Shown piece after piece: positions 9,509 to 47,495 of a stretch of DNA of 48,412 bases (its first letter is position 1; every line of letters begins with the position of its first letter). The translations under genes and the position numbers were made by a program. Below the pieces are notes generated by a model. That model saw nothing but the letters and a program-made list of their open reading frames with translations, was not told where the DNA came from and made no database searches. The DNA comes from a candidate division WWE3 bacterium (GTDB lineage: Bacteria; Patescibacteriota; WWE3; JAUXAW01): NCBI GenBank assembly GCA_030619715.1, contig JAUXAW010000005.1, forward strand, positions 1-48,412, written 5' to 3'.

Positions 9509-11004
9509 TGATGAAAAATTTTGTGGAGAAGTATAATCGGCAGATACAGAGATCTTTGGAGATTGTGCCGGGGGTGATCACCTGGACCTTCATCACCTCC
9601 CCCGTCTGGGCCGGACTTTTCTTTCCGGAAATAATGGCCTATGTGGTTATCTTCTTTTCCCTCTATTGGTTTTTCCAATCCGCCCGTATCGGTCGCGGAA
9701 TTATTGTTTCCTACAAGCGGGTCAAGAAAGATACGAACCGTGATTGGCTGGCTGACTGCAAAAGCTTTTCAGATTTTGAAAAAATTCAACATCTGGTAAT
9801 AATTCCCTTCTGCAAGGAGCCGTTGAGCACTTTGCGGAACACCCTTAATAATTTGACGAAGCAGACTTTTATCAAAGAACAAATACATGTTGTCTTGGCG
9901 ATGGAGGAATTTGCTGGGGAGTTTGGGAGAGAGAATGTCGAAACCCTGCTTTCTGAATTCAAGGGAAAGTTCGGCAACATCTGGGCAACTTTCCACCCAC
10001 GTATCGGAGGGGAGGTTGTGGGCAAGTCCTCAAACATGGCCTGGGCGGGAAAGTGGGCCAAGAAAAAGTTAGTCGACGAATTGGATTACGACCTCGATTA
10101 CATTTATGTAACCTCGAACGATGCTGATGCTCGTTTGCATTCTCGCTATCTAAGTTGTGTTACCCATAAAGTTCTGTCTCTACCCAAAAGATTGCGCCAC
10201 CTGAGATTTTTTCAATCCCCAATTGTTTTCTACAACAATCTCTGGCGAGTGACTCTACCGGTGCGGATCCGAAGTGCGACGGCGAGCGTAATCGAAATGG
10301 GGAGGATGGCATCACCACAGGACCTCCACCCTTACTCGACCTACACCACCTCTCTAAAAATGGTCCACGAGGCGGGGTATTGGGGGACGAAAGTTATCCC
10401 CGAAGATTACCACCTTTTCTATAAATGTTTCTTCAACAACGGGGGAGATGTTGATGTCCTGCCCGTCTTTTTGCCAACATCGGCCGATGCCGCCGAGTCA
10501 ACCACTTTTTGGAAGAGTATTAAAAACCACTACCAGCAAGTCCGCCGTTGGGCCTACGGCGCTTCCGACGACCCTTATGTTTTCAAAGAAACTTTGAGGC
10601 ATTCGGAAATCCCACTGGCTAAGCGTCTCTACCGTTTATTCATCCTGACCGATTTCCACTTTCTCTGGGCGGCGAAATCGTTTATTCCTTTCGGCTCATT
10701 TGTGGCCCTTTTGATCAATCCCACTTTTGGCCAGACAGTCCTGGCCCACAATCTGCCGCGCATCTCTAGTTTGATTTTTAAGTCCTGCTTTGTCTTTACT
10801 ATCGCCCTAGTTGCGGCTGATATCTTGATGCGGCCCAAACACCCCAAAAAATACAGCAAGAAAAAACTTCTGGCAATCTCCCTTTTTGATTGGTTCCTTT
10901 CACCAACCGTTGGTCTTTTGTTTTCGGTCATCCCCGCCATCGACGCCCACACCCGGCTAATGCTAGGAAAATATCTGGAGTATAAGGTAACCGAAAAGGT
11001 ATGA
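9508..11004 (+). CDS. Membrane-bound family 2 glycosyltransferase
   Basis: The 498 residues begin with two transmembrane helices (PVWAGLFFPEIMAYVVIFFS). A GT-A catalytic domain follows with VIIPFCKEP, SNDADARLH near 200 (DxD-like), PEDYHLF near 297 and QQVRRW near 341, which corresponds to the QxxRW motif of processive transferases. Three hydrophobic segments end the protein. It should move sugars from a nucleotide or lipid donor onto a growing chain at the inner membrane. It is coupled to metG by a 1-bp overlap and to the WecA-like gene by ATGA, so the glycan role follows from the downstream partner. The sugar is unknown. Confidence 0.82.
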   Translation: MMKNFVEKYNRQIQRSLEIVPGVITWTFITSPVWAGLFFPEIMAYVVIFFSLYWFFQSARIGRGIIVSYKRVKKDTNRDWLADCKSFSDFEKIQHLVIIPFCKEPLSTLRNTLNNLTKQTFIKEQIHVVLAMEEFAGEFGRENVETLLSEFKGKFGNIWATFHPRIGGEVVGKSSNMAWAGKWAKKKLVDELDYDLDYIYVTSNDADARLHSRYLSCVTHKVLSLPKRLRHLRFFQSPIVFYNNLWRVTLPVRIRSATASVIEMGRMASPQDLHPYSTYTTSLKMVHEAGYWGTKVIPEDYHLFYKCFFNNGGDVDVLPVFLPTSADAAESTTFWKSIKNHYQQVRRWAYGASDDPYVFKETLRHSEIPLAKRLYRLFILTDFHFLWAAKSFIPFGSFVALLINPTFGQTVLAHNLPRISSLIFKSCFVFTIALVAADILMRPKHPKKYSKKKLLAISLFDWFLSPTVGLLFSVIPAIDAHTRLMLGKYLEYKVTEKV

Positions 11005-12428
11005 GCAAAACGCCGGCCGTGATTTTTGCGGGAAGTTTTTTCTTAATTCTTATCGCGGCTTTTACAGTTTATTCAGGTCTCTCCTCTCTTCCGCCCGAGG
11101 TCCCTCTTTGGTATACCAGGGAGTGGGGTACGCTTCGCCTCTCTGCGCCGAAAAACCTCTATCTGATTCCCAGCTTGGGATTTGCGGTGCTAGCTATAAA
11201 TTTTTTGATTTACTGGGCTCTTTTAAGAAAGCGTGAGGGAACCGCGGCCCAGGTGTTTGCTCTTTTAAGTTTAGCCAGCTTAAGTCTTTTGACGCTCTCT
11301 GCTTTGAGAATCGTTAATCTTGTTGGTCCGGGTCTTAGGTTTTCAACCTCGGCTCTCAATCTTTTGCACCCATTTCTTGTTGGGCTTCTTTTTTCTCTTT
11401 GCCTGACCCCTCTTTTGATTAAGCTGGGCAAGCGCCTGCGACTGATTGACCGCCCCCACGGTCCTTATGTTGATGTCCGTCCGCTGGTGCGGCTCGGTGG
11501 GGTTGTCATTTTCCTCTCGTTTGCAATCTCTACCCTAATTTTTTTGCCGTTGAACAAGAATCTTACAGCTCTCCTTTTGGGAGGATTGCTGTTGACGGTA
11601 GTCGGAGCAATCGATGATGTCTTTAATCTTTCACCGCTAGCGCTAGGCATAACCCATGTCTTAGCCACTCTGACTTTGGTTTTAGGAGGGTTGGGAATTA
11701 GCTTTGTCACCAACCCTCTTTCGTTTTTGGGCGGGCCGAAATTTTTTCAATTGGATATCTGGCAGATTCCGTTTGAAATCAAGGGGCTCACCTACCACCT
11801 GACAGTGCTGGCTGATCTTTTTACTCTGGTTTGGGTCTTTGCCTTAATCAACACAGTTGATTGGTTAGACGGTCTGGACGGACTAGCCGCTGGTGTGGGG
11901 GTGATTGCCGCCGCAGTAATTTTGGGAATTTCGTTAAGGTTTCACACGCCGGTGACGGCGACCCTTTCTTTAATCTTGGGAGGAGTACTGCTTGGCTTTT
12001 TGTCTTTCAACTTTTCCCCGGCCAAAATTCTTCTGGGCAGCGGGGGGTATCTTTTGGGATTTCTTGTGGCAACCCTAGCAATTTACAGTGGAGGAAAAAT
12101 TGCCACCGCCCTGCTGGTTTTGGCCCTTCCGATACTTGACACTTTGATTGTCCTGACGAGCCGTTTTCGCAAGGGCAAACCTTTGTATCTAGGGGACAAA
12201 ACACATCTCCACCACCGCCTGCTGGAGAAAGGTCTAAGCGTTCGTCAGGTTGTTCTTTTGGAGTGGGGGCTTTGTGGTCTTTTGGGAGCGGTTGCCTTCT
12301 TTTTGACCGGCTGGAAGAAACTTCTGGCAATTATGACCGTTTTTGTGGTTGGGTTGCTCTTTAACCAATTATTTGGTCTCACGGCCTCAGAATTAAAAAG
12401 CAGAGTCCGGAGAGTAAGAGCTGGGTGA
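11001..12428 (+). CDS. Polyprenyl-phosphate N-acetylhexosamine-1-phosphate transferase (WecA/TagO/MraY family)
   Basis: This 475-residue multi-pass protein carries the family signatures: IDRPHGPYVDVRPLVRLGG, AIDDVFNLSP near 204, NTVDWLDGLDGLAAG near 286 and HLHHRLLEKG near 401. The family transfers a sugar-1-phosphate from a UDP-sugar to undecaprenyl phosphate, the first membrane step of a lipid-linked glycan. The HLHHRL form favours WecA/TagO over MraY. An extra pair of N-terminal helices makes it longer than usual. It overlaps the glycosyltransferase by 4 bp. Its last 12 codons and stop lie in a 41-bp sequence repeated 1,096 bp downstream. Confidence 0.87.
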   Translation: MSKTPAVIFAGSFFLILIAAFTVYSGLSSLPPEVPLWYTREWGTLRLSAPKNLYLIPSLGFAVLAINFLIYWALLRKREGTAAQVFALLSLASLSLLTLSALRIVNLVGPGLRFSTSALNLLHPFLVGLLFSLCLTPLLIKLGKRLRLIDRPHGPYVDVRPLVRLGGVVIFLSFAISTLIFLPLNKNLTALLLGGLLLTVVGAIDDVFNLSPLALGITHVLATLTLVLGGLGISFVTNPLSFLGGPKFFQLDIWQIPFEIKGLTYHLTVLADLFTLVWVFALINTVDWLDGLDGLAAGVGVIAAAVILGISLRFHTPVTATLSLILGGVLLGFLSFNFSPAKILLGSGGYLLGFLVATLAIYSGGKIATALLVLALPILDTLIVLTSRFRKGKPLYLGDKTHLHHRLLEKGLSVRQVVLLEWGLCGLLGAVAFFLTGWKKLLAIMTVFVVGLLFNQLFGLTASELKSRVRRVRAG

Positions 12429-12432
12429 TGAT
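12392..12432. repeat. Left copy of a 41-bp direct repeat bounding a one-gene cassette
   Basis: It matches 13488-13528 with one mismatch (A12399 versus G13495). This copy codes for the end of the WecA-like protein (ELKSRVRRVRAG and stop). Confidence 0.85.
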
Positions 12433-12675: not shown

Positions 12676-13287
12676 TCATTCAGCATACAGCTGTAATTCT
12701 TCCAGCCTAACCTGTGTCTCTTGGAGATCCTCATCGAGAGCTTGAAGCTTCTCCTCGCAGACAGTTGGCCACTTGGCACACCGCTCTGCCACATTGGCTA
12801 AGGAAACTGCTTCGGTCGCTAATTCCAGGGTACTGCCGTGCACATCTTCTAAGCCCTGGGCTGGAGTGATCTCTCGCACTTCCGCAAGATAGTCCTTAAA
12901 GCTTGCTTGTGTCTCTCGCACAACCCGCGAGAACTCTTCCTCTGAGAGGTCGTGCCTATGATCGACGCTCCAAGCGAGATGCTGCAGGCGCAGATCGTAG
13001 GATAGCAGCAAATCCCTTAGTATCATGCGGCAGAGCCCCGCGTCTACTGTTGACAGCGCCTCTGTCAAGTCTTGTTCGACGCGGTAGAGCCCTCTATCCA
13101 TCTCCCGGTATTCAAAGAGGCGCAGATCATAGGATAGCAGCAAGTATCTTAGTTCAGCGCGGTGTTCAAAGTTACGGAGCGCCGTATCCACCTCTTTTTT
13201 CCACCAAAGGACACTAGTAAGCTGCAAGGCCATCGTGAGCAGCATGCCAAGAACCACTACCGTTCTCGTTTTTCTTTTCTCTCCCAC
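12676..13287 (-). CDS. Membrane-anchored coiled-coil protein of unknown function
   Basis: This 203-residue protein has one N-terminal transmembrane helix (VVVLGMLLTMALQLTSVLWW, about residues 10-29) and a long, charged, mostly helical remainder. The segment LLLSYDLRL occurs twice, 44 codons apart. The DNA copies (12986-13020 and 13118-13152) are nearly identical over 35 bp, which points to a recent internal duplication. The start is GTG at 13287, supported by a strong AAGGAGGAGG site just upstream. It has its own promoter-like sequence and terminator and is flanked by 41-bp direct repeats, so it looks like a complete inserted cassette. No function is suggested. Confidence 0.72.
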   Translation of the reverse strand: MGEKRKTRTVVVLGMLLTMALQLTSVLWWKKEVDTALRNFEHRAELRYLLLSYDLRLFEYREMDRGLYRVEQDLTEALSTVDAGLCRMILRDLLLSYDLRLQHLAWSVDHRHDLSEEEFSRVVRETQASFKDYLAEVREITPAQGLEDVHGSTLELATEAVSLANVAERCAKWPTVCEEKLQALDEDLQETQVRLEELQLYAE

Positions 13288-13474: not shown

Positions 13475-13900
13475 TCAAGACTTTAAGATTAAAAGGCAGA
13501 GTCCGGAGAGTAAGAGCTGGGTGATGATTCCCGGTAGGATGGGAGTCCGATTTTGGATGCGGCGTTGGAAGTCACAAAGTTTTTTGACGAAGCGGTTATT
13601 GTGTCCGAAAAAGATGTACGGCGCTTCGAGAAGGTCGGGAAGAATGGCAAAAAAAGCGGCGGCGGTAAGGTTTAATTTTAACGGCGATTGGAAAGCAAGG
13701 TAACCGATCAGGATTTCTAGTAGAATAAGGTCGAGAATGATGCCCAGAAGACTGAGGGGGCGGGCGTCGGGTTCCCAGTTCCAGTGAGGCAGCATATCTA
13801 CGCCGAAGTGGGAAAGGAAAGCCAGCGGCAAGCTGATCAGCGGGTTTGGTATTGTTGCAGCGATGGCCATTCCGACCAAGGCGTGTGGTGTTTCTAGCAT
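13475..13900 (-). CDS. YdjM-like (putative metal-dependent hydrolase family) membrane protein
   Basis: The 141 residues from ATG 13900 begin METPHALVGMAIAATIPNPL (after the initiator M-L), then LAFLSHFGVDMLPHWNW. This is the pattern of the YdjM/DUF457-like integral membrane family with conserved histidines and aspartates. About four hydrophobic segments follow. The start at 13900 is supported by a TTGACT-N17-TACAAT promoter ending 10 nt upstream, and a longer reading would pass through that promoter. Its last residues (LLLSGLCLLILKS) are encoded by the right copy of the 41-bp repeat, so the present C-terminus may have been shaped by that insertion. The biochemical role is unknown. Confidence 0.72.
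   Translation of the reverse strand: MLETPHALVGMAIAATIPNPLISLPLAFLSHFGVDMLPHWNWEPDARPLSLLGIILDLILLEILIGYLAFQSPLKLNLTAAAFFAILPDLLEAPYIFFGHNNRFVKKLCDFQRRIQNRTPILPGIITQLLLSGLCLLILKS
13488..13528. repeat. Right copy of the 41-bp direct repeat
   Basis: It matches 12392-12432 with one mismatch. It codes antisense for the C-terminus of the YdjM-like protein. Confidence 0.85.
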
Positions 13901-13910
13901 AACGAGGTGA

Positions 13911-13939
13911 ATTGTATGCGAAAACCAACTATGAGTCAA
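13911..13939 (-). promoter_or_regulatory. Promoter of the YdjM-like gene
   Basis: On the minus strand TTGACT, a 17-bp spacer and TACAAT end 10 nt before ATG 13900. It overlaps the start of the divergent prenyltransferase gene, so the two genes share this DNA. Confidence 0.65.
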
Positions 13940-37390: not shown

Positions 37391-39571
37391 TCAAACTTGT
37401 CTTTGTCCGAGGACGACCTCGGGGTCGTGGATGAGGACGTCACGGGGCCTACTGCCGTCGGCGGTGCCAACGATTCCCCGCTCTTCCAGTTCATCCAGTA
37501 GCCGGGCGGCACGGGCGTAGCCGATGCGCAACCTTCTTTGCAAAAGTGAAGCCGAGGCGCGATCAAATTCACAAACGGTTCGGACGGCGTCGGCAAAAAG
37601 TTCATCTTCGGGCTCTTTCTCCTCGGAGACCTTGCTGGCCAAATATTCGGTCACCTCCTCTTTGTATTCGGGCTGGACGCCACTTTCCCGCAAGAATCCA
37701 ATCAGCCGGGAAAGCTCGGCCTCGGAGACAAAAACACCTTGGATTCTTACTGGCTTGGAGGCGTCGGGGGGAAGATAAAGCATATCACCCCGACCGAGAA
37801 GTTTCTCCGCCCCGGCCTGGTCGATGATCACCCGCGAGTCGACCTGGGAGGTGACATTAAAGGCGATGCGGCAGGGGATGTTGGCCTTGATCAGTCCGGT
37901 CAGGATATCCACCGAGGGGCGCTGGGTGGCCAAAAGCAGATGGAGCCCGGTTGCCCTTGACATTTGGGCCAGGCGGGTGATGGTCCTTTCAACTTCGACC
38001 GGAGCTAGGACCATTAAATCAGCCAGCTCGTCGACGGCGATGACAATAAACGGTAGGGCCTGAAATCCCGAAAGTTCATTGTAGGCGTTGATGTCCCGGG
38101 CGCCGGTCGTTTCAAAAAGTTTGTAGCGGCGGTCCATCTCGGCAATCGCCCATTTTAAAGCCGGCAGGGCTTTTCCCGGCTCAACAATCACCCGGGTTAG
38201 AAGATGGGGAATGCCGTTGTAGCGAGGCAGCTCGACCCTCTTGGGATCGATTAAGATAAATTTGATCTCGTGGGGCGAGGCGCGAAAAAGCATCGTTGAG
38301 ATGAAAGAGTGCAAAAGAACCGACTTTCCCGAGCCGGTCGCTCCGGCGATCAGGATGTGAGGCATGCGGGCAATATCGGCAATCACTGGCTGGCCGGCGA
38401 CATCAAGACCCAAGGTGACGGTCATCTTGGAGCGGGCGTTCTTCATCAGATCGGAACTGATGATTCCCTTCAAAGTTACCAACGCCGGGGAATAGTTGGG
38501 AACTTCGATGCCGATCAAAGATTTTCCCGGAATGGGGGCCTCAATCCGCACCGAGCCGGTCGGTGAAGCGAGAGCCATCGCCAGGTCATTCTGCAAATTG
38601 GTGATCTTGGCAATTTTGGTTCCCTCGGCAGAATCAAGGGCGTATTGGGTGACGGCCGGACCGAGGTTGACCTCGACGACCTTGGTTCTGATTCCAAAGG
38701 AAGCGAGAGTGCTTTCGATCAGAGCAGCGTTGGCTTTGACATCGCCGCGATCGGCAGCGGCTTCAGGCGTGTCCGAGAGGAGACTGAGGGGAGGATATTC
38801 CCAAACTTGGTCGGAGAAAGGCAAATTGGCGACCGCTTCTTCCGCGCGTTTTTTTGCGGCGGCTACTTTTTTGGTGCTGACCGGCTCGGCCGGTGAGGGG
38901 ACGATCTGAAACTCCGGCTCCTCGCCCTTAACTTCAATCTCTTTTCCCTCGAGAATCTTTGGCTCTTCAACTCTTTTAGCCCTGAAATTTTTAATCACTT
39001 CGGTGATGTTGCGAAACAAAAATTTCTGGGCGAAGTTCCAAGAGGCGGTGGCGAGCTTTCCCAAAAAAATTATCGTCTGGTCGAGGGAGGTGTTAAAGAT
39101 GATAATGCCCGAAAGGGTGAGGGTGCAAAGAAGAATCAGCAAAGCGCCCAATGCCGAAAAAGATTCTCTGAGAATTTTTTGGGTATAGAAGCCGACCAGC
39201 CCCCCACCTTCGCCGAGGGTTGCCTGAAGGTAGGCGGTGGAACCAGAGAAAAAGAGAAGGTGGAAGAGAGCCAAAATCGTGACGGTGAAAAGGCAAAGCC
39301 CGAAGAGCGTGTTGAGGTTGACAAACTTCCACTTGATCGTGCGCAGGAGAACGAGGCCGGCGAGGGCTAATATAAGTGGTATTAAGATGACTCCCCAGCC
39401 GAAGAGCTTGTTTAAAATGTTTTGGATGACAAAGTTGACCGCCGCCGCCTGGGCAAAAAAGGAGATGAAGGTTAGACCGGCGGACAAAAGAAGGATCGCC
39501 GCCGCCGCGGACAGGATGGTGTCTCTTTCAAAGCGTAATTTTAAGGGTCGCTTTCTTCGCCTTCTTCCCAT
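37391..39571 (-). CDS. ftsK: DNA translocase FtsK/SpoIIIE
   Basis: The 726 residues from ATG 39571 begin with four transmembrane helices (about 20-170) and a short linker. The motor follows: PHILIAGATGSGKSVLLHSFI near 400 (Walker A), VIAVDELADLMVL (Walker B) and HLLLATQRPSVDILTGLIK, ending in a winged-helix gamma domain (ASLLQRRLRIGYARAARLLDELEERGIV). It pumps chromosomal DNA at the septum. The start MGRRRRKR was preferred over an upstream codon because the promoter -10 lies 9 nt before it. It is divergent from the first ruvX copy. Confidence 0.95.
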   Translation of the reverse strand: MGRRRRKRPLKLRFERDTILSAAAAILLLSAGLTFISFFAQAAAVNFVIQNILNKLFGWGVILIPLILALAGLVLLRTIKWKFVNLNTLFGLCLFTVTILALFHLLFFSGSTAYLQATLGEGGGLVGFYTQKILRESFSALGALLILLCTLTLSGIIIFNTSLDQTIIFLGKLATASWNFAQKFLFRNITEVIKNFRAKRVEEPKILEGKEIEVKGEEPEFQIVPSPAEPVSTKKVAAAKKRAEEAVANLPFSDQVWEYPPLSLLSDTPEAAADRGDVKANAALIESTLASFGIRTKVVEVNLGPAVTQYALDSAEGTKIAKITNLQNDLAMALASPTGSVRIEAPIPGKSLIGIEVPNYSPALVTLKGIISSDLMKNARSKMTVTLGLDVAGQPVIADIARMPHILIAGATGSGKSVLLHSFISTMLFRASPHEIKFILIDPKRVELPRYNGIPHLLTRVIVEPGKALPALKWAIAEMDRRYKLFETTGARDINAYNELSGFQALPFIVIAVDELADLMVLAPVEVERTITRLAQMSRATGLHLLLATQRPSVDILTGLIKANIPCRIAFNVTSQVDSRVIIDQAGAEKLLGRGDMLYLPPDASKPVRIQGVFVSEAELSRLIGFLRESGVQPEYKEEVTEYLASKVSEEKEPEDELFADAVRTVCEFDRASASLLQRRLRIGYARAARLLDELEERGIVGTADGSRPRDVLIHDPEVVLGQRQV

Positions 39572-39580
39572 AACACCCTT

Positions 39581-39609
39581 ATTGTGCCACAAGTAAAGCC
39601 AAAATTCAA
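39581..39609 (-). promoter_or_regulatory. Promoter of ftsK
   Basis: On the minus strand TTGAAT, a 17-bp spacer and CACAAT end 9 nt before ATG 39571. Confidence 0.6.
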
Positions 39610-39626: not shown

Positions 39627-39635
39627 TGCTATTAT
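39627..39635 (+). promoter_or_regulatory. Extended -10 promoter of ruvX copy A
   Basis: TGcTATTAT lies 7 nt before ATG 39643. Matching elements precede copies B (40311-40319) and C (43023-43031), so each copy brought its own promoter. Confidence 0.55.
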
Positions 39636-40168
39636 TGATTGTATGGCCGAAGAGAAGAAGGTTTTGGGAGTGGATTTTGGGGAGAGGCGGGTGGGGTTGG
39701 CGATGACGGAGGGCGATTTGGCCGAGCCCCTGTTCCTTTTTCATCTGTTTTGCCCCTAAAAAGGATTATGCTACCTACTATTCCAACAATAAATGTTAGT
39801 GGGGCTATAGCTGTGGCTATTATAAAAGAGGCTACATGTAGTGCTTCAAATAAATATTTAAAATTTTCAAAAGCTATAGCTAAACCATAGAATAGGTTGT
39901 GTAATATTGAAAAAGGAAGAAGGGCCGTTGCTGAAATTCCAGTTAAGATCAAAAATAGTTTCAATTTCCCTTTTTCCTTTCTAGCCAGGGATGTGAGTCT
40001 GACGCCTCGTATAAGAAATACTAATCCTAATATGGCGAATAATGGGAGAAGTGCTGCCTTAATATAACTAAGAGGTGGGGGAGAAGGAATAAAGATAAAG
40101 GCTAATAAAAAAATGAAAATTTTTATTAAGGAGTTAAACGTTTTTTTCAAGACTGATTTATTTTTCAT
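39632..40168 (-). CDS. AT-rich membrane protein with a tail encoded antisense to ruvX
   Basis: The 178 residues have a signal-like helix and about four transmembrane segments (LLPLFAILGLVFLIRGV, LFLILTGISATALLPFSIL, ASFIIATAIAPLTFIVGIVGSIILF). Function unknown; similar small four-helix proteins are frequent in Patescibacteria. The last 32 residues (starting GARPNRPPSS) are read from the opposite strand of ruvX copy A, so the natural C-terminus has been replaced at the insertion junction near 39733. Codon use is AT-rich, unlike the neighbours. Confidence 0.6.
   Translation of the reverse strand: MKNKSVLKKTFNSLIKIFIFLLAFIFIPSPPPLSYIKAALLPLFAILGLVFLIRGVRLTSLARKEKGKLKLFLILTGISATALLPFSILHNLFYGLAIAFENFKYLFEALHVASFIIATAIAPLTFIVGIVGSIILFRGKTDEKGTGARPNRPPSSPTPPASPQNPLPKPSSLRPYNQ
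39643..39759 (+). pseudogene. ruvX: ruvX copy A: promoter and N-terminus, truncated
   Basis: ATG 39643 opens MAEEKKVLGVDFGERRVGLA, then MTEGDLAEPL, the intact N-terminus of the YqgF/RuvX Holliday-junction resolvase family with the catalytic GVDFG. The frame then enters foreign sequence and stops at 39757. The body of the gene is 3.4 kb away at 43099-43452. It lies in the expected place, divergent from ftsK. The nucleotide sequence differs from copies B and C outside a 24-bp identical core (39664-39687). Confidence 0.85.
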
Positions 40169-40302
40169 ATTTGGTTTTAATTATATATGATTTGACAAGA
40201 GATCAGAACTAATTGTATTTTAGCAGAAATCCGAGCAGATGCAAAGCAGCCTTATCAAAGAGGATTCCATCGGAGCGAAATCGCAAGACGGCGCTAGCGA
40301 AG
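40169..40302. other. AT-rich gap between the first inserted gene and ruvX copy B
   Basis: No gene is seen. TTGACA at about 40192 has no good -10 partner. A short CTAGC-gaa-GCTAG palindrome (40293-40305) abuts the start of repeat B. Confidence 0.5.
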
Positions 40303-40386
40303 CTAGTATGTGTTATTATTAGCCCTATGAGTGGGGCCAAGAAAATCTTGGGAGTGGATTTTGGGGAGAGGAGGATGGGGTTGGCG
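40303..40386. repeat. ruvX-derived direct repeat, copy B
   Basis: This 84-bp segment holds an extended -10 box and the first codons of ruvX. It matches 43015-43098 at 74 of 84 positions, 2,712 bp away, and bounds the second insertion. Confidence 0.85.
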
Positions 40387-40392
40387 ATTTAG
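40327..40392 (+). pseudogene. ruvX: ruvX copy B: N-terminus only
   Basis: ATG 40327 codes for MSGAKKILGVDFGERRMGLA then Ile and TAG at 40390. The catalytic DFG...R residues are intact, but the rest of the gene is missing; AT-rich DNA follows. Confidence 0.85.
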
Positions 40393-40612
40393 CGTAAGCG
40401 ATCGAAATTTCCTTTTAATCCTTGTTAAACTCTTTTCCCATACGAAGTGTGGAAAAATTTCGTCCGAAAAGTTTTTGTCCCGCCGAATTTTTGTTGCGAG
40501 TGTAGTTTTGTAGAGGTTTATTCTCCTTAGGGTTTTTGAGAACCAAGTCTAATTTTAACTGTGTAGTAGTTACTATCCAAAAGGTTTATATTTGGTACTA
40601 TTATTATTTATT
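40393..40612. other. AT-rich left flank of the radical SAM / RmlD insertion
   Basis: No gene is seen. CGAAATTT at about 40407 and AAATTTCG at about 40455 form an 8-bp inverted repeat. The element TTTTTGTCCCGCC at 40472-40484 is repeated in inverted orientation at the other side of the insertion. No convincing promoter for the radical SAM gene was found; TATTAT-like runs lie just before it. Confidence 0.5.
40472..40484. repeat. Left 13-bp inverted repeat TTTTTGTCCCGCC of the insertion
   Basis: It is the exact reverse complement of 42744-42756. The two flank the radical SAM and RmlD-like genes. Confidence 0.7.
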
Positions 40613-41785
40613 ATGACCTCACAAAGTTTAGATGAAACTATCCAAAGAAGATTTACAGACTTTATGGAATGGGGAGAGCCACCTTTTGATTATGAAAGAA
40701 ATGTTTTTGAATCGCAATTTAAAAGACTGTTAAGACTTTTTGATGGGAAAATAACACCACCATATGAGGTTGAAATACAATCATCATCTTCTTGTAATAT
40801 TAATTGTGTTTGGTGTGTTGGTGATCAATATCCAAGACTGAAGAATTTACTTAATCAAAAGAGTATGAGGAAAGTTTCGCAAGATATGGTTGAATTTGTA
40901 GAGGATGGTTTTGGTATTGAAACAGTGAAGTTTTCAGGATTTGTAGGCGAACCATTGGTTAATCCAGCTACAATAGATGGTTTAGAAGTTCTTATTGAAA
41001 ACGGAAAAAGAGTGGGATTATTTACAAACGGGATGCTAATGGACAGAGAAACATCTGATGGAAGAAGATATTTAGATACTATATGTGAAGCAAGTTTTCT
41101 TCATGTTAGCCTTGATGCTGGTTCCGAAACCACAATGCAACACCTTAAAGGTTATCAAGCAGACTTTGAAAGAATAATGACTAATCTCGAACAAGCAATT
41201 AATACAAGAGAAAAAAGGAAAACAAGATTAGAGATAGGAGTTGGTTATATCATAACGCCCGATAATTTTAATGAAATCTATAAGCTTGCAAGAAGATTAA
41301 AAGAAATGGGTGTCGATTTTATTAGGTTCAAGGTCGATATTACTGGGAGATATTTATTGGGAGATACAGCAGAAAAAGCAAAGGAAGAAGTTGCTAAAGC
41401 GAAAGGGTTAGTTGATTCTAGGTTTAAGGTTGTTTCAATACATACAGAGGATGAAAGTCAGGGTTGTGAAATATATGATATACATACGATGGGTAAAATA
41501 AGGTGTTATACAACCCAATTATGGAGTACAGTGGGTTCTGATGGACAATTATATGCGTGTGACCATAGAACACATAAAAATGGAAGACCTTATGGAGACC
41601 TTAAAACAAATACATTCAGAGATGTATGGACATCAAGGCAAAATAGCTTACCTGATGAATATTGTAATATGTGTTCACCTTTTGGAACAAGAATAAACAG
41701 ATTCTTAAATTTTTTATTTCAGTTAGAAAGAGGACAAATTGTTGAGTTGCATGATAATTATTTGCAAACAGGAGATAGAAAATGA
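40613..41785 (+). CDS. Radical SAM enzyme with SPASM-like C-terminus, in AT-rich insertion
   Basis: The 390 residues from ATG 40613 have the radical SAM triad C61, C65 and C68 (CNINCVWC), then VKFSGFVGEPLVNP, LFTNGMLMD, LHVSLDAGS and an auxiliary-cluster-like C-terminus with RCYTT, YACDHRTHK and YCNMC. The substrate is unknown. The stop overlaps the RmlD-like gene by 4 bp (ATGA), so the two should act together; a sugar or nucleotide-sugar substrate is inference from that partner. Codons are strongly AT-biased, unlike the rest of the window, which indicates transfer. Confidence 0.82.
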   Translation: MTSQSLDETIQRRFTDFMEWGEPPFDYERNVFESQFKRLLRLFDGKITPPYEVEIQSSSSCNINCVWCVGDQYPRLKNLLNQKSMRKVSQDMVEFVEDGFGIETVKFSGFVGEPLVNPATIDGLEVLIENGKRVGLFTNGMLMDRETSDGRRYLDTICEASFLHVSLDAGSETTMQHLKGYQADFERIMTNLEQAINTREKRKTRLEIGVGYIITPDNFNEIYKLARRLKEMGVDFIRFKVDITGRYLLGDTAEKAKEEVAKAKGLVDSRFKVVSIHTEDESQGCEIYDIHTMGKIRCYTTQLWSTVGSDGQLYACDHRTHKNGRPYGDLKTNTFRDVWTSRQNSLPDEYCNMCSPFGTRINRFLNFLFQLERGQIVELHDNYLQTGDRK

Positions 41786-42630
41786 AATTACTTTTGATAG
41801 GGGCTTCAGGTTATATTGGTTCGAGCTTATATAGTCAATTGTCTCAAAACCATCAAGTAATTGGAACACATTATAAACATAATGAAAGACGTCCAAATTC
41901 AGTTTTATTAAATTTGAATAACCCAAGAAATATTTCAGATGTATTACGACAGGAGGTTCCTGATATTGTTGTTCACGTAGGAGGATTAACAAGTGTAAAC
42001 TATTGTGAAAGAAATAAAGAAGAAGCAACAAGAGTAAATACAGATGCAACTAAATCTATTATTGACAATTTTGATGGAAAGGTTGTTTATATCTCAACTA
42101 ATTACGTATTTGATGGTTCAAGAGGGGATTATACCGAATCTGATTCTACTAATCCTATAAATCATTATGGTTTAACCAAATCTCAAGCAGAGGAAATAAT
42201 CTTAGGAAAAACCAATAATTTAGTAATTAGATTTGGGTCAGTGTATGGGTACAATCCTCAAAATAATAAATTCTTTAATCGCTTTTTTGAAAGTGGTAAA
42301 CCTAAAAAAGAAATTGATGGCTGTCCAGAATTAATATTATCACCCACATATTTAGGAGATGTAGTCAACAATTTTGAAAGATTCCTTGAATATGATGGGA
42401 TTATACATTTTACAAGTGGCTCTCCCCTAAGTGAATATGACTTCTTTGCAGAAATAGGTAAAAGATTAGATTTGGGATTTGTAGTTAATGTTGTGTCATT
42501 TGATGAAATATGCAGAACTGCTGAAAGACCTCGTAATGCCACTCTTTCAACCGAAAGAGATTTGCCTTTTGTCAGAACTTCATTAGATGATTCTTTAAGA
42601 GATCTACGTAAGGTTCTCAAAAACCTGTAA
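41782..42630 (+). CDS. RmlD-like NAD(P)-dependent sugar reductase, in AT-rich insertion
   Basis: The 282 residues form an extended short-chain dehydrogenase: LLIGASGYIGSSLYSQL, VHVGGLTSVNYCERNKEEATRVN, the serine in YISTNYVFDGSRGDYTE and the active-site YGLTK. This matches dTDP-4-dehydrorhamnose reductases (RmlD), which finish deoxysugar synthesis. No rmlA, rmlB or rmlC is nearby. It is translationally coupled to the radical SAM gene and equally AT-rich. Confidence 0.85.
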   Translation: MKLLLIGASGYIGSSLYSQLSQNHQVIGTHYKHNERRPNSVLLNLNNPRNISDVLRQEVPDIVVHVGGLTSVNYCERNKEEATRVNTDATKSIIDNFDGKVVYISTNYVFDGSRGDYTESDSTNPINHYGLTKSQAEEIILGKTNNLVIRFGSVYGYNPQNNKFFNRFFESGKPKKEIDGCPELILSPTYLGDVVNNFERFLEYDGIIHFTSGSPLSEYDFFAEIGKRLDLGFVVNVVSFDEICRTAERPRNATLSTERDLPFVRTSLDDSLRDLRKVLKNL

Positions 42631-42743
42631 CAAAATTTGGGTCGGAATAGAGCTTGTCCCGTATGAAGCCGTTTAATTGGCTTACAATTAAGCGAAACGA
42701 GCAACGCTAAAAAATTCGGTTAACCTGCGACTTTATCGTCGGA

Positions 42744-42756
42744 GGCGGGACAAAAA
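42744..42756. repeat. Right 13-bp inverted repeat GGCGGGACAAAAA of the insertion
   Basis: It is the exact reverse complement of 40472-40484. Both are half of the palindrome seen complete at 2964-2983. Confidence 0.7.
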
Positions 42757-42837
42757 TTGAGTTTAACGTTCGCGTGTGTGAGAAGTTTCGCACACATTCT
42801 TACCTTCATCAATTGAAGTGTGCGAGATTTGGGTGAG

Positions 42838-42879
42838 AGAAAAAGTGCTTCCGCTAAAAATTATCTACGCACTTTTTCT
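42838..42879. terminator. Bidirectional-type terminator hairpin
   Basis: AGAAAAAGTGC pairs perfectly with GCACTTTTTCT. A-rich and T-rich arms on both sides would allow termination in either direction. Confidence 0.65.
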
Positions 42880-43014
42880 TGAGCCTCATATACTTTGTTA
42901 TGCGATGTAAAATTTACTTTCTTTGATCAACAAAACCTCCAAAAGGGAAGGATCTAAATGTATAAGCAGTAACAAAAGACATAGGACAATTATAAACAAT
43001 ATACGCCAGCATCA

Positions 43015-43098
43015 CTAGTATATGCTATCATTAGCCCTATGAGTGGGGCCTAGAAAATCTTGGGGTTGTATTTTGGGGTGTGGAGGGTGGGGTTGGCG
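43015..43098. repeat. ruvX-derived direct repeat, copy C
   Basis: It matches 40303-40386 at 74 of 84 positions. It contains the extended -10 box TGcTATCAT and the ATG at 43039. Confidence 0.85.
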
Positions 43099-43452
43099 GT
43101 GTCGAGAGGTCAGCTAGCCGAACCTCTTTCTATTGTTGAGGTTACCAACCAGAACTCCGCTGTTGAGGAGATCGCTAAGACTTGTCAGCGAGAGAAAATC
43201 GAGGAGATTGTTCTCGGATTGCCGCTCGACTCCGACGGCCAGGTCGGTCCCGCGGCGCAAAAGGTAAAAGAGTTTGGTCAGAAATTAGCTAAAAGAACTG
43301 GATTAGAAATTATCTTCTGGGATGAGACCTTGACAAGTGAGGAAGCTTTGGCCAAAATGGTTGAGGCCGGTCGACCGCGGCAAAAACGTCGTCATTTGGA
43401 TGATGTAGTTGCTGCCCTGATCTTGCAAGAATATTTGGACTCGCAACGATGA
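43039..43452 (+). pseudogene. ruvX: ruvX copy C: gene body with damaged N-terminus
   Basis: ATG 43039 reads MSGA and then TAG at 43051. Translation could only use TTG 43060, giving 130 residues. From 43099 on the body is intact: LAEPLSIVEV, EIVLGLPLDSDGQVG, FWDETLTSEEAL and RRHLDDVVAALILQEYL. The conserved GVDFGERR reads GLYFGVWR, so the N-terminal catalytic aspartate and the next charged residues are lost. In the intact family the protein is a Holliday-junction resolvase-like RNase H fold needed for 16S rRNA maturation. The stop overlaps mltG by 4 bp. Confidence 0.82.
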
Positions 43453-44444
43453 AGAAAAAACTGCTGCTTCTCATAACTCTTTTGATAACCATCCCCCCCG
43501 TTGCGTACTCCTATTATAATTATGCTCTCAATCTGCCCGGTAGCTCCGATGAGACGCCGGTTAACTTCGCCGTTGAGCAAGGTCAGAGTGTTGAGGAGAT
43601 TGCTAAGAATCTTGAGAGTGGGGGTTTAATCCGTTCAGCCGCTCTTTTTCGACTCTACACCGTTCTCTCAGACCTTTCGTCAAGTCTGCAGGCCGGCGAA
43701 TACCAAATCCCCCAAAATCTTAATCTCAAAGAAGTTGCCGACCTTTTGCGGCACGGAACGTTTGAGGAACGGCTGACTTTTATTGAGGGGTGGCGTCGCG
43801 AGGAAATGGCAAACGAAATATCAAAAATCAAAACTCCCGCCAGGAGGGCGGGCAGGCAAAACTCAAATCTGAACGCGGTGGATTTTCTACGAGAATCGGA
43901 GGGGTTGGAGGGCTATCTTTTTCCGGATACCTATTTCGTGTCAAAAGAAACGACCGCAGAAGACTTAGTTAAAATGATGAGAGAAAACTTTGAAAATAGG
44001 ATTAAGGAGGATGAGGTGGATTTACAGGGACTAACTTTGGACGAGGTTGTCAACATTGCCTCGATTGTTGAACGTGAGGTTCGGTTGGCTGAGGATAAGC
44101 CAATTGTGGCCGGAATCTTAATCAAACGCTTCTTAAATGGTTGGGCGCTGCAGGCCGATGCGACAATTCAATATGCCCTCGGCTATCAGAATGACAAGGA
44201 GGGGTGGTGGAAGAAAAACCTCATTTTGGAAGATTTAGAAATTGATTCTCCCTACAACACCTACGAAAACCCCGGCCTCCCTCCAGCCCCCATTTGCAAT
44301 CCCGGCCTGGAGTCCCTCGAAACCGCTCTCAACCCCACCGAAACGGACTACTGGTACTATGTCTCCGACTCCGAAGGTCAGACGCACTTTTCCGTCACCA
44401 ACGAAGAACATAATGAGAATGTAGCGAAGTATCTGGAGAGATAG
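43449..44444 (+). CDS. mltG: Endolytic murein transglycosylase MltG (YceG-like)
   Basis: The 331 residues have an N-terminal transmembrane helix (LLLITLLITIPPVAYSYYNY), a LysM-like part (FAVEQGQSVEEIAKNLESGGLIRS) and the catalytic region with EGLEGYLFPDTYF, NIASIVEREV (catalytic Glu), LQADATIQYALG, DSPYNTYENPGLPPAPICNPGLES and THFSVTNEEHNENVAKY. It cuts nascent glycan strands at the membrane. A repeat-derived insertion (TPARRAGRQNSNLN, near residues 130-140) interrupts a normally conserved region. The ATG overlaps the ruvX stop, the common ruvX-mltG pair. Confidence 0.93.
   Translation: MKKKLLLLITLLITIPPVAYSYYNYALNLPGSSDETPVNFAVEQGQSVEEIAKNLESGGLIRSAALFRLYTVLSDLSSSLQAGEYQIPQNLNLKEVADLLRHGTFEERLTFIEGWRREEMANEISKIKTPARRAGRQNSNLNAVDFLRESEGLEGYLFPDTYFVSKETTAEDLVKMMRENFENRIKEDEVDLQGLTLDEVVNIASIVEREVRLAEDKPIVAGILIKRFLNGWALQADATIQYALGYQNDKEGWWKKNLILEDLEIDSPYNTYENPGLPPAPICNPGLESLETALNPTETDYWYYVSDSEGQTHFSVTNEEHNENVAKYLER
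43819..43866. repeat. Heptamer-like and CCCGCC/GGCGGG composite repeat inside mltG
   Basis: TCAAAAA and ACTCAAA-type units surround a CCCGCC...GGCGGG palindrome (43836-43852). The insert stays in frame and codes for KIKTPARRAGRQNSNLN. Confidence 0.75.
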
Positions 44445-44556: not shown

Positions 44557-46014
44557 GTGGAAATGAACAAAAAGAAAATCAAATGGCAAAAAATAGTTAG
44601 AAGAAGGCTTGTTCCCCTCCCATCTTCTGTCCACTGCGAAGGTTGGACCATTAACATCAAAAAGTATGCTGGCGTGGGCCTTAACACCAACCTTGCTGGC
44701 GGTACCCTTCCTCAACAACTGGCGGTAGACTCGGAGAAGTTAATCGCGCTCGGGAAAAGGATTCACGAAAAAATAAAACGTGATCCAAAATTTGTTGAGC
44801 AACATATCAAAGATTGTTACCAAGCTTGTGAGGCCTTTGTTGAAGCAGGAAAAAATGCCGCCTCTGGTGAGCTGACTTCGCTTGATTTGTCCCAGTTGTT
44901 GGAAAGGTTCCAGAAAGTTTTGGAGCCCTGGAAACATTTCGCCATCTTTTTGTACATTCCCCATGCTGTCGAGAGTGTGCTTGGTGCTGAACTCGAGAAG
45001 CTCTTTGGAGAGCAAAATACTGGAGAAGTTAAGTATTCAGACCTTCTTGTTGCGCCCAAGTATCCAGAATCAACAATTGAGCAACATGAGTTAACTTATC
45101 TGGCAAAAGAGATTGAAGATGGAGAGATTAAGGATTATAGCAAGCTCCTTAGAAGACACCACCGAAAATATTGCTGGCTCTCCGTGTATGAAAATGACGA
45201 ACAACCCTTTACTTTGCAGGATTTCCAAAAGCGTCTTAAGGGACTTTTAAACTCTGACCTTAGAAAAAGAATTGGGGAGATTGAAGAGGGGAAAAAGCAA
45301 ATCAAAAAGGTAGATCGGCAAATCAAAACACATCTCAAAGGAGAGCTCCTCTCACTCCTGACCATCCTAAGAGAATACATCTTCCTTCGCTCTTACCGAA
45401 CGGAAATGATGCGAAAGGCAATGTTTAATTCCCAACCCCTTCTTAAAGAGATAGCCGAGAGAGCGAATCTAACGCTCAGTGAACTTTGTCATCTTACCGA
45501 GGGAGAAGTCGTTGGGTTTCTTAAAAATAGAACACTAGTCCCGAAAGAGGAAATTCAGGAGAGAATGAAAGCTTGGGCCATTCTTGAGGTGGAGGGATCC
45601 TACAGTTTCTACTCTGGTGAGGAAGCAATCAAGGTGGTCGAGGAAGCTTTTGGTAGAAAAGGTGACCCCTCAACCCTAAACGAGGTCACCGGGACAGTTG
45701 CTAGTCTCGGCCGCGCTCAGGGTAAAGTTCGGATAATTTTGGACAAAAGAAGGGCTCACGAGCTGCAAAAAGGCGAGGTTCTCGTAGCGGTGATGACCCA
45801 ACCCGAATATATGGTCGCTATCGAAAGATGTATCGCTATTGTTACCGACGAGGGTGGGGTTTTGTGCCACGCGGCGATTGTTTCTCGAGAGATGAATATT
45901 CCCTGCGTCATCGGTACTGAAGTTGCAACCAAAGTTTTCAAGACCGGAGATTTAGTCGAAGTTGATGCAGGGAAAGGAATTGTGGGGAAGTTGGAAAAAG
46001 AATACTTAGGATGA
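44557..46014 (+). CDS. Protein with C-terminal PEP-utilizing mobile (phosphohistidine) domain, copy 1
   Basis: The 485 residues (GTG 44557; ATG 44563 is possible) have an N-terminal helical part of about 370 residues, with KYCWLSVYENDEQPFTLQDFQKRL and LREYIFLRSYRTEMM. A PEP-utilizer swivel domain ends the protein: GTVASLGRAQGKVRIILD, then TDEGGVLCHAAIVSREMNIP with the phospho-accepting His near 438. In PEP synthase or rifampicin phosphotransferase this domain shuttles phosphate between an ATP-grasp and a second site. No ATP-grasp is present here. It is the first of three tandem relatives and overlaps the second by 4 bp. Confidence 0.8.
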   Translation: MEMNKKKIKWQKIVRRRLVPLPSSVHCEGWTINIKKYAGVGLNTNLAGGTLPQQLAVDSEKLIALGKRIHEKIKRDPKFVEQHIKDCYQACEAFVEAGKNAASGELTSLDLSQLLERFQKVLEPWKHFAIFLYIPHAVESVLGAELEKLFGEQNTGEVKYSDLLVAPKYPESTIEQHELTYLAKEIEDGEIKDYSKLLRRHHRKYCWLSVYENDEQPFTLQDFQKRLKGLLNSDLRKRIGEIEEGKKQIKKVDRQIKTHLKGELLSLLTILREYIFLRSYRTEMMRKAMFNSQPLLKEIAERANLTLSELCHLTEGEVVGFLKNRTLVPKEEIQERMKAWAILEVEGSYSFYSGEEAIKVVEEAFGRKGDPSTLNEVTGTVASLGRAQGKVRIILDKRRAHELQKGEVLVAVMTQPEYMVAIERCIAIVTDEGGVLCHAAIVSREMNIPCVIGTEVATKVFKTGDLVEVDAGKGIVGKLEKEYLG

Positions 46015-47495
46015 GCGAATACCAAAATTGGCACAGATTAGTTGCCCGCAAAGCCGCTGTTCTTCCATCGGAAAACATAATGATGGGGTATCTCCACGCC
46101 TCGTTCAAAAATCTCCTTGATGTCGACTGTGAGTTTTCGGGATTTAACTATATCAATTATGGAGCCTATGTCCGAAAGCAAGATTTTTTCGCTTTCGTTA
46201 GTAAAGTTCAAGAGAAAGTCAAAAAAGACCCAAAATTTATCCGGTGGGTGATCAAGCGAAATTACGAGCAATGTGAAAAACTTCTCAAGGCGGCTAAGAT
46301 TAATACTTCTGAACTGAAAAAGAAACGGGACAAAGAACTAGAGGTACTCCTCCAAAAATACATTGACGAATTCCACAACATGGGACCATTTTGGGCCGTT
46401 CCCTTCGCCGTTGAGAAAATTGGCACAAATGTTATCTCCGAGGAACTGAAAAAGAAGATCGGAGAAGAAAACAAAGACAAATTCAGGGACCACTTTCTAA
46501 TTCTGACCTCTCCCTCAAAAGAGGGTTATGTTGGTCGGGAACAACGGGAGTTTCTCCAATTGATAGTTGAGATTAAGAAATTAGGTTATTCTTTAGATGA
46601 TCCCAAATTAAAAATGGTGCTGAAGAAAAATGAAGGGTTGTGGGAGAAGATCAACGCCCATGTTTCCAACTACGCTTGGCTAAACGTTCAATACATGATC
46701 GGCGATCCGTGGACAGTTGACGATTTCTTTTTGCGTCTCGGACACACCCCTAATCCCGAAGAAAAACTCAAAGAGCAAGAGGAGAGCAGAGCGAATACCG
46801 AACGAGATGTTCAAGAAGTGATCAAGAAGCTTAACCTCTCAAAAGAAACGGTGGAAGTCGTTGATGCGATAAGAGAGTATGTTTTTCTCCGCACCCACAG
46901 AAAAGATATTACCACCCTCGGAGATTATAAAATCCGCCCCCTGTTGGTAGAGATCGGTAGAAGATTTGGATTTTCTTTTGAGGAGATAACCTACCATTTG
47001 GTCGAGGAAATTTATGATCTTCTTCTGGGTGGGAAAAAACTAAAGAAGGCAACCATTAAAGGGCGTATGGACGATTTTGCCATTTTGGCGAATAAAAAGA
47101 GTGTCAAGGTAATTACCAAAAAGGCATTAGAAGATTATAAAAAGGTTTGGGGCGAAGATATAATTAGAGAAGAAATAAAAGAGTTTCAGGGAGAAGTTGC
47201 CAGTAAAGGTTATGGTAAGGGTAAGGTAAGACTTCTTGTTGACAGAAAACTAATTCCGTCTTTCAAACAGGGAGAGATTTTGGTAACTACCATGACTACC
47301 CCCGACTTTGTTCCGGCGATGCGGAAAGCGGCGGCGATTGTAACCGACGAGGGTGGGATTTTATGTCACGCCGCTATTATCAGCCGAGAACTAAATAAAC
47401 CGTGTGTGATTGGAACCGAGATCGCAACCAAAGTTTTGAAGACAGGAGACTTAGTTGAAGTTGATGCAGAGCAAGGTATTGTGAGAAAGTTATAG
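46011..47495 (+). CDS. Protein with C-terminal PEP-utilizing mobile domain, copy 2
   Basis: The 494 residues repeat the architecture of copy 1: KKDPKFIRWVIKRNYEQCEKL, YAWLNVQYMIGDPWTVDDFFLRL, IREYVFLRTHRKDITT, and the swivel domain GEVASKGYGKGKVRLLVD with TDEGGILCHAAIISRELNKP, His near 453. The C-terminal 100 residues are much closer to copy 1 than the N-terminal part, so the swivel domain is the conserved element. The N-terminal helical part may bind the substrate (inference from rifampicin-phosphotransferase-like layouts). Confidence 0.8.
   Translation: MSEYQNWHRLVARKAAVLPSENIMMGYLHASFKNLLDVDCEFSGFNYINYGAYVRKQDFFAFVSKVQEKVKKDPKFIRWVIKRNYEQCEKLLKAAKINTSELKKKRDKELEVLLQKYIDEFHNMGPFWAVPFAVEKIGTNVISEELKKKIGEENKDKFRDHFLILTSPSKEGYVGREQREFLQLIVEIKKLGYSLDDPKLKMVLKKNEGLWEKINAHVSNYAWLNVQYMIGDPWTVDDFFLRLGHTPNPEEKLKEQEESRANTERDVQEVIKKLNLSKETVEVVDAIREYVFLRTHRKDITTLGDYKIRPLLVEIGRRFGFSFEEITYHLVEEIYDLLLGGKKLKKATIKGRMDDFAILANKKSVKVITKKALEDYKKVWGEDIIREEIKEFQGEVASKGYGKGKVRLLVDRKLIPSFKQGEILVTTMTTPDFVPAMRKAAAIVTDEGGILCHAAIISRELNKPCVIGTEIATKVLKTGDLVEVDAEQGIVRKL

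Follow-up and report, generated by a model that had tools for sequence, protein, structure and literature searches.

How does one gene come to have three 5' ends in a row, with AT-rich foreign DNA between them? The question is raised by ruvX in a candidate division WWE3 bacterium (GenBank assembly GCA_030619715.1). The window analyzed here, a stretch of 48,412 nucleotides (contig JAUXAW010000005.1), is contig C13 of a draft genome of 674 kb in 36 contigs; the genomes of the relatives in our comparison set mostly measure 0.4 to 1.2 Mb. Our favored answer, to which we assign a probability of roughly 0.55, is a one-sided recombination that adds foreign cassettes beside core genes, with ruvX being one of several such loci in this genome.

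Three 5' ends of ruvX

The ruvX site begins to the right of ftsK (37391-39592, minus strand), a divergent neighbor with Pfam FtsK domains, and all three ruvX starts lie on the plus strand, with ATG codons at 39643, 40327, and 43039, as a first-pass annotation of the window had stated. Copy A (39643-39732), the outermost remnant, comprises codons 1 to 30 (MAEEKKVLGVDFGERRVGLAMTEGDLAEPL) and has its own upstream region. Copy B (40303-40388) consists of 24 bp of upstream sequence and of ruvX codons 1 to 20, with an intact DFGERR motif, and is then truncated. Copy C (43015-43098) provides a regenerated upstream region and an N-terminus joined to the body of the gene (43060-43452, plus strand), which is open from a TTG codon, matches PF03652, and is followed by mltG (43449-44444, plus strand). 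Farther downstream, the window contains two tandem paralogs (44557-47495) that have a C-terminal PEP-utilizer mobile domain and no further Pfam domain.

The similarities reported between the copies were reproduced exactly. Copies B and C match over 84 bp (40303-40386 versus 43015-43098) with 74/84 identities (88.1%), for a genome-level E value of about 1e-24, and copies A and B share an identical core of 24 bp within 50 bp at 90% identity (39655-39704 versus 40339-40388). Homology to ruvX reaches about +90 in A and only about +62 in B, the two ends being 28 bp apart. To see whether silent sites agree beyond what the codon usage of this genome predicts, we took that usage as the null for synonymous choices. 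In the A/B core, 11 of the 12 codons for the same residue are identical versus 3.6 expected (P = 7e-6), which is far beyond chance; past the core, A and C share 1 of 6 synonymous choices (1.7 expected), and ahead of it B and C share all 6. Upstream, copy B is thus closer to C, and in the core it is closer to A, and the variation of silent-site agreement along the copies suggests that their parts differ in origin. Such a mosaic is what unequal crossing-over between edges from two strains would produce; this reading is weakened by the fact that most positions at which A and B agree against C are changes peculiar to C.

The N-terminus of copy C had been described as intact like the others, and here the first-pass annotation does not hold. 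As judged from its own open reading frame and from an alignment with the PDB relative 1vhx, codon 5 of copy C is TAG (43051-43053) and the catalytic Asp, present in 1vhx at this position and invariant in 28/28 aligned relatives, is replaced by Tyr; the DFGERR motif reads YFGVWR, and further motif residues are altered. The changes are concentrated at 43051-43075, where disruptive substitutions, many of them from purine to T, lie densely within the RuvX motif between two nearly clean flanks. A diversity-generating retroelement was considered for the differences between C and B, as many of them hit adenines, and was rejected because two are G to T. No stop interrupts the remainder of the reading frame, which provides the genome's only RuvX match, and RuvX is present in all 54 of the searched genomes that are at least 90% complete. 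As assembled, the N-terminus of copy C is not functional; either ruvX is impaired in this organism, or the sequence contains local errors, or the site varies within the population.

The ancestral order had been given as ftsK divergent from ruvX-mltG. Its right-hand part is supported by relatives, in which ruvX and mltG are adjacent at 12 of 34 loci; for the ftsK side the evidence is copy A, and ftsK has no match in the 34 ruvX loci of relatives. A search of genome contigs for close relatives, with a view to an empty ruvX site, returned at most 40% identity, and in the one genome of the comparison set that belongs to the same taxonomic order, ruvX sits elsewhere.

Foreign cassettes between the copies

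The two gaps are AT rich, as had been noted, with a GC content of about 30 to 37% versus a genome mean of 48%, and they carry the cargo in the order given: a membrane gene, and then genes for a radical SAM/SPASM protein and an RmlD-like protein. In cassette 1 (39733-40302), the membrane gene (39632-40168, minus strand) reads its last 33 codons from the antisense strand of remnant A, its own stop codon having been lost at a junction near 39733. The open reading frame encodes 178 amino acids, and its homologs, which belong to other families, have 135 to 150 amino acids and end where the 33-residue tail begins. Both genes, ruvX and the membrane gene, are thus cut short at the left junction, the outcome expected of an illegitimate join, and a junction that cuts a foreign gene argues against an element with defined ends.

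Cassette 2 (40389-43014) contains the radical SAM/SPASM gene (40613-41785, plus strand; PF04055, 2.3e-12; PF13186, 3.7e-4) and a gene for an RmlD-like sugar-nucleotide reductase (41782-42630, plus strand; PF04321, 5.7e-42). The radical SAM gene has one weak relative in 45 genomes of the class, none at 1e-40 in 380 genomes of the phylum, and none in viral contigs. Perfect inverted repeats of 13 and 14 bp (40472-40544 and 42612-42756) flank the gene pair. Considered as terminal inverted repeats of cassette 2 (14 bp, 40531/42612; 13 bp, 40472/42744), they were discarded, being marginal against shuffled sequences, not located at the ends, and overlapping the RmlD coding sequence with one arm. The two ruvX cassettes share no end sequence, and the cassette proteins scanned gave no match to any recombinase family, in agreement with the reported lack of an integrase.

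Duplicated gene edges across the genome

We scanned the genome, handled as stretches with some contigs masked as N, for partial copies of gene edges lying outside the gene in question and within 7 kb of it. After removal of paralogs and simple repeats, about 10 edge-duplication events were found at seven gene edges, all on the side adjoining the edge. Those at 5' edges are the two at ruvX, one at comM/YifB (contig C8, L048:13722-14622), where the segment from -44 to +41 is duplicated at 91% identity around an AT-rich cassette for a membrane protein, and one at a methyltransferase gene (contig C4; 140 bp, 83%). At 3' edges, there are two events at rpsJ (contig C27), two at clpB (contig C11, L051:952-2765), whose 3' end is present three times, one at a yraN-like gene together with its downstream promoter (contig C9), and one in the window itself. 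The latter concerns a glycosyltransferase-like gene (11001-12428), the 3' edge of which (12392-12432, plus strand) is 98% identical over 41 bp to a remnant at 13488-13528 (plus strand) that doubles as the 3' end of a convergent gene (13475-13939, minus strand); a cassette gene with no Pfam family (12676-13287, minus strand) lies between the two ends. At clpB, both outer copies also share 35 bp that do not belong to clpB, so that the repeat unit of 82 bp spans an older junction. The genes found between edge copies include membrane genes, CYTH and PHP genes, a ChaN-like gene, and an APS-kinase-like gene. The ruvX start had been proposed as a recurrent entry point for accessory DNA in the lineage; insertion there was indeed repeated, but the site is not special, being one of about seven edges that include 3' ends.

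Candidates struck from the list were hisS (a simple repeat), prepilin and tandem paralogs, and artefacts of overlapping open reading frames. The count also omits numerous further intergenic repeats that represent promoters, terminators, or a palindromic operator. Among the repeats seen on other contigs, a block of 60 bp after a tRNA gene, with a hairpin and promoter-like sequence, occurs three times around gene groups on contig C22 (30350-35756; L084:10350-15756), and the palindrome ACCATAAACTGGATTATGGT occurs four times with small variations on contig C31 (45706-49455; L089:5706-9455) near a small gene for a TrpR-type repressor-like protein, of which it is probably the operator.

For the rpsJ site, relatives offer an empty counterpart for comparison. 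In genomes G001, G019, and G030, tuf-rpsJ-rplC-rplD is uninterrupted and the gap between rpsJ and rplC is 171 to 210 bp; here it measures 2.66 kb and holds two cassettes and two remnants of the rpsJ 3' end. The order (L074:6961-9505) is a membrane gene, an rpsJ-end remnant, two reverse-strand genes (CYTH and PHP), the second remnant, 171 bp, and rplC. The genes of the second cassette are thus oriented against the operon, and the CYTH gene takes its final codons and its stop from antisense rpsJ. For an operon as nearly universal as tuf-rpsJ-rplC, two insertions are in themselves an unusual finding.

The same method was applied as a control to 1.5 Mb of partial genomes (400 kb each of G030, G071, and G019 and 298 kb of G001) and returned three events: at the 3' end of lepA in G030, at a 3' edge with a tRNA in G019, and a 29-bp case at ychF in G071. 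In the first (G030:C1, about 232.4 to 236.8 kb; L106), which is in another genome of the class, lepA is parted from hrcA by a two-gene cassette, after which come 87 bp left over from the 3' end of lepA (97%). This genome therefore accounts for 10 of the 13 events (P = 7.5e-4) and for 7 of the 10 sites (P = 0.012), in a comparison that is post hoc and covers partial genomes; leaving out ruvX, which prompted the scan, the share is 6 of 9 sites and the probability about 0.03 by hand arithmetic. The signature of duplicated edges exists elsewhere and is denser in this genome.

Discussion

Based on these results, we suggest that the incoming DNA consisted of foreign genes together with a ruvX edge from a related strain, and that it would have been integrated by homologous recombination within ruvX and by an illegitimate join at the other end, which fell within the 5' region of the resident ruvX. 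Remnant A would be what is left of the broken resident start, and the foreign genes and the new start B would have come to lie between A and the gene body. A second round would then have brought in the radical SAM/RmlD pair along with copy C, either by another one-sided event or by unequal crossing-over between the edge repeats of two strains with different cassettes. Once duplicated, an edge may become a docking place for more cassettes through homologous recombination. Of the two kinds of junction called for by this proposal, the illegitimate one is seen near 39733, where ruvX and the membrane gene are both cut; on the other side, the regenerated edge runs smoothly into the gene body, as would be expected if that join were homologous. 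Since neither a donor nor a genome of the same species was found, microhomology at the junction and the homologous crossover are not visible, and the collections searched gave no close relative for a comparison of cargo at the same locus.

Transformation is the likely route of uptake, since Saccharibacteria, another group of Patescibacteria, have been demonstrated to transform in a comEC-dependent manner (PMC10633639), and comEC is present in this genome (ComEC family match, 1.4e-53); we infer this route, as we do the donor, the sequence in which the events took place, and the positions of the crossovers. The pattern fits homology-facilitated illegitimate recombination (PMC2884548), which has been described in naturally competent species (PMC3240628) and has been proposed as the builder of arrays in Vibrio (PMC5361080). 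Two observations do not follow simply from one-sided recombination. The 35 non-clpB bp within the clpB repeat unit are not expected from a plain gene-edge anchor. Moreover, under laboratory conditions such illegitimate recombination occurs only rarely, and 3 of the 7 sites were nevertheless hit twice, so that a second process, such as crossing-over between edge repeats, or hot spots would be needed.

Other explanations account for parts of this pattern. Non-autonomous integrative cassettes, moved by a site-specific recombinase acting in trans, could use gene edges as targets and bring a substitute edge along, in keeping with the edge of 40 to 140 bp in every unit, the identical A/B core between diverged flanks, the tandem accretion at one edge, and two phage-integrase-type recombinases elsewhere in the genome, where three integrase-type hits lie on other contigs. 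We consider this unlikely, given that the scanned cassette proteins include no recombinase, that serine recombinases and resolvases were searched for in the genome and none was found, that the core differs from gene to gene, that the ruvX remnants end at different points (+90 and +62), that an end of cassette 1 cuts a gene and the cassette ends have no sequence in common, and that copy C lacks a working N-terminus. A dedicated, undescribed system that acts in trans and docks cassettes on the ends of housekeeping genes, giving integron-like arrays with core genes as attachment sites, seems quite improbable to us. In an integron array, the cassettes have a recombination site in common and are served by an IntI integrase; a comparison by sequence of the cassette ends described here showed nothing shared. 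We likewise give little credence to small circles looped out between edge repeats in related strains and reinserted when RecA promotes one crossover within the short stretch of edge they have in common. The blocks of a cassette between two shared segments, such as -44 to +41 on both sides at comM, are the product expected of a single crossover, and circles would also account for the tandem arrays and for the clpB unit that spans the old junction; however, they leave unexplained how the first cassette acquired a gene edge, exact runs are just 21 to 40 bp long, and transformation delivers linear single strands.

An artefact of assembly, or a mixture of strains in this metagenome-assembled genome, would be in line with the 36 contigs and with the dense cluster of disruptive changes in copy C. 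It has a slim chance of being correct, because the repeat copies are 2 to 17% diverged and have different foreign genes beside them at about seven independent sites, because the spacing from the remnant to rplC agrees with that in relatives, and because the similar event at the lepA 3' end occurs in a single-contig genome, G030. Ordinary tandem duplications with middles later replaced by foreign DNA would explain why each insert is flanked by direct repeats, yet they are very hard to reconcile with silent sites indicating that the outer parts of the copies differ in origin (1/6 for A and C past the core), and the duplicated genes leave nothing beyond their edges.

The first-pass annotation had likened the locus to integrative elements that use the 5' end of a gene, such as SXT at prfC and the Vibrio element IMEVchUSA3 at dusA (PMC8409611). 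The likeness holds insofar as each insertion at a gene start supplies a diverged N-terminus preceded by a new promoter region, and the remark on the missing integrase stands. Defined ends and a fixed crossover point are absent, however, the cassettes measure 0.6 to 2.6 kb, both 5' and 3' gene edges are used, and an in-frame N-terminus is not restored, as the last ruvX start has a TAG codon and lacks the invariant Asp. Closer to one-sided recombination are the displacement arrays of type VI secretion effector-immunity genes in Vibrio cholerae (PMC5361080), with their one homologous anchor at a conserved edge and an illegitimate other end; there too, foreign genes are added, old ends stay, events stack, and no integrase is involved. 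The present case differs in that housekeeping genes (ruvX, rpsJ, clpB, and comM) supply the anchoring edges, in its mixed cargo, and in the number of sites, about seven in one small Patescibacteria-type genome. A further parallel is that of the minimal mobile elements of Neisseria, variable genes between conserved ones that are exchanged by transformation through flanking homology and are defined by comparing strains. The likeness would lie in gene content that varies between conserved genes; edge remnants are present here and are not known to have been described for the Neisseria elements.

Streamlined Patescibacteria-type genomes still gain genes, and the settling of short foreign segments without a recombinase mostly escapes observation. 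In edge remnants, individual insertions have left a fossil record, which shows their direction, order, and target. As they can be found by a simple scan in any genome, the rate of one-sided recombination becomes measurable.
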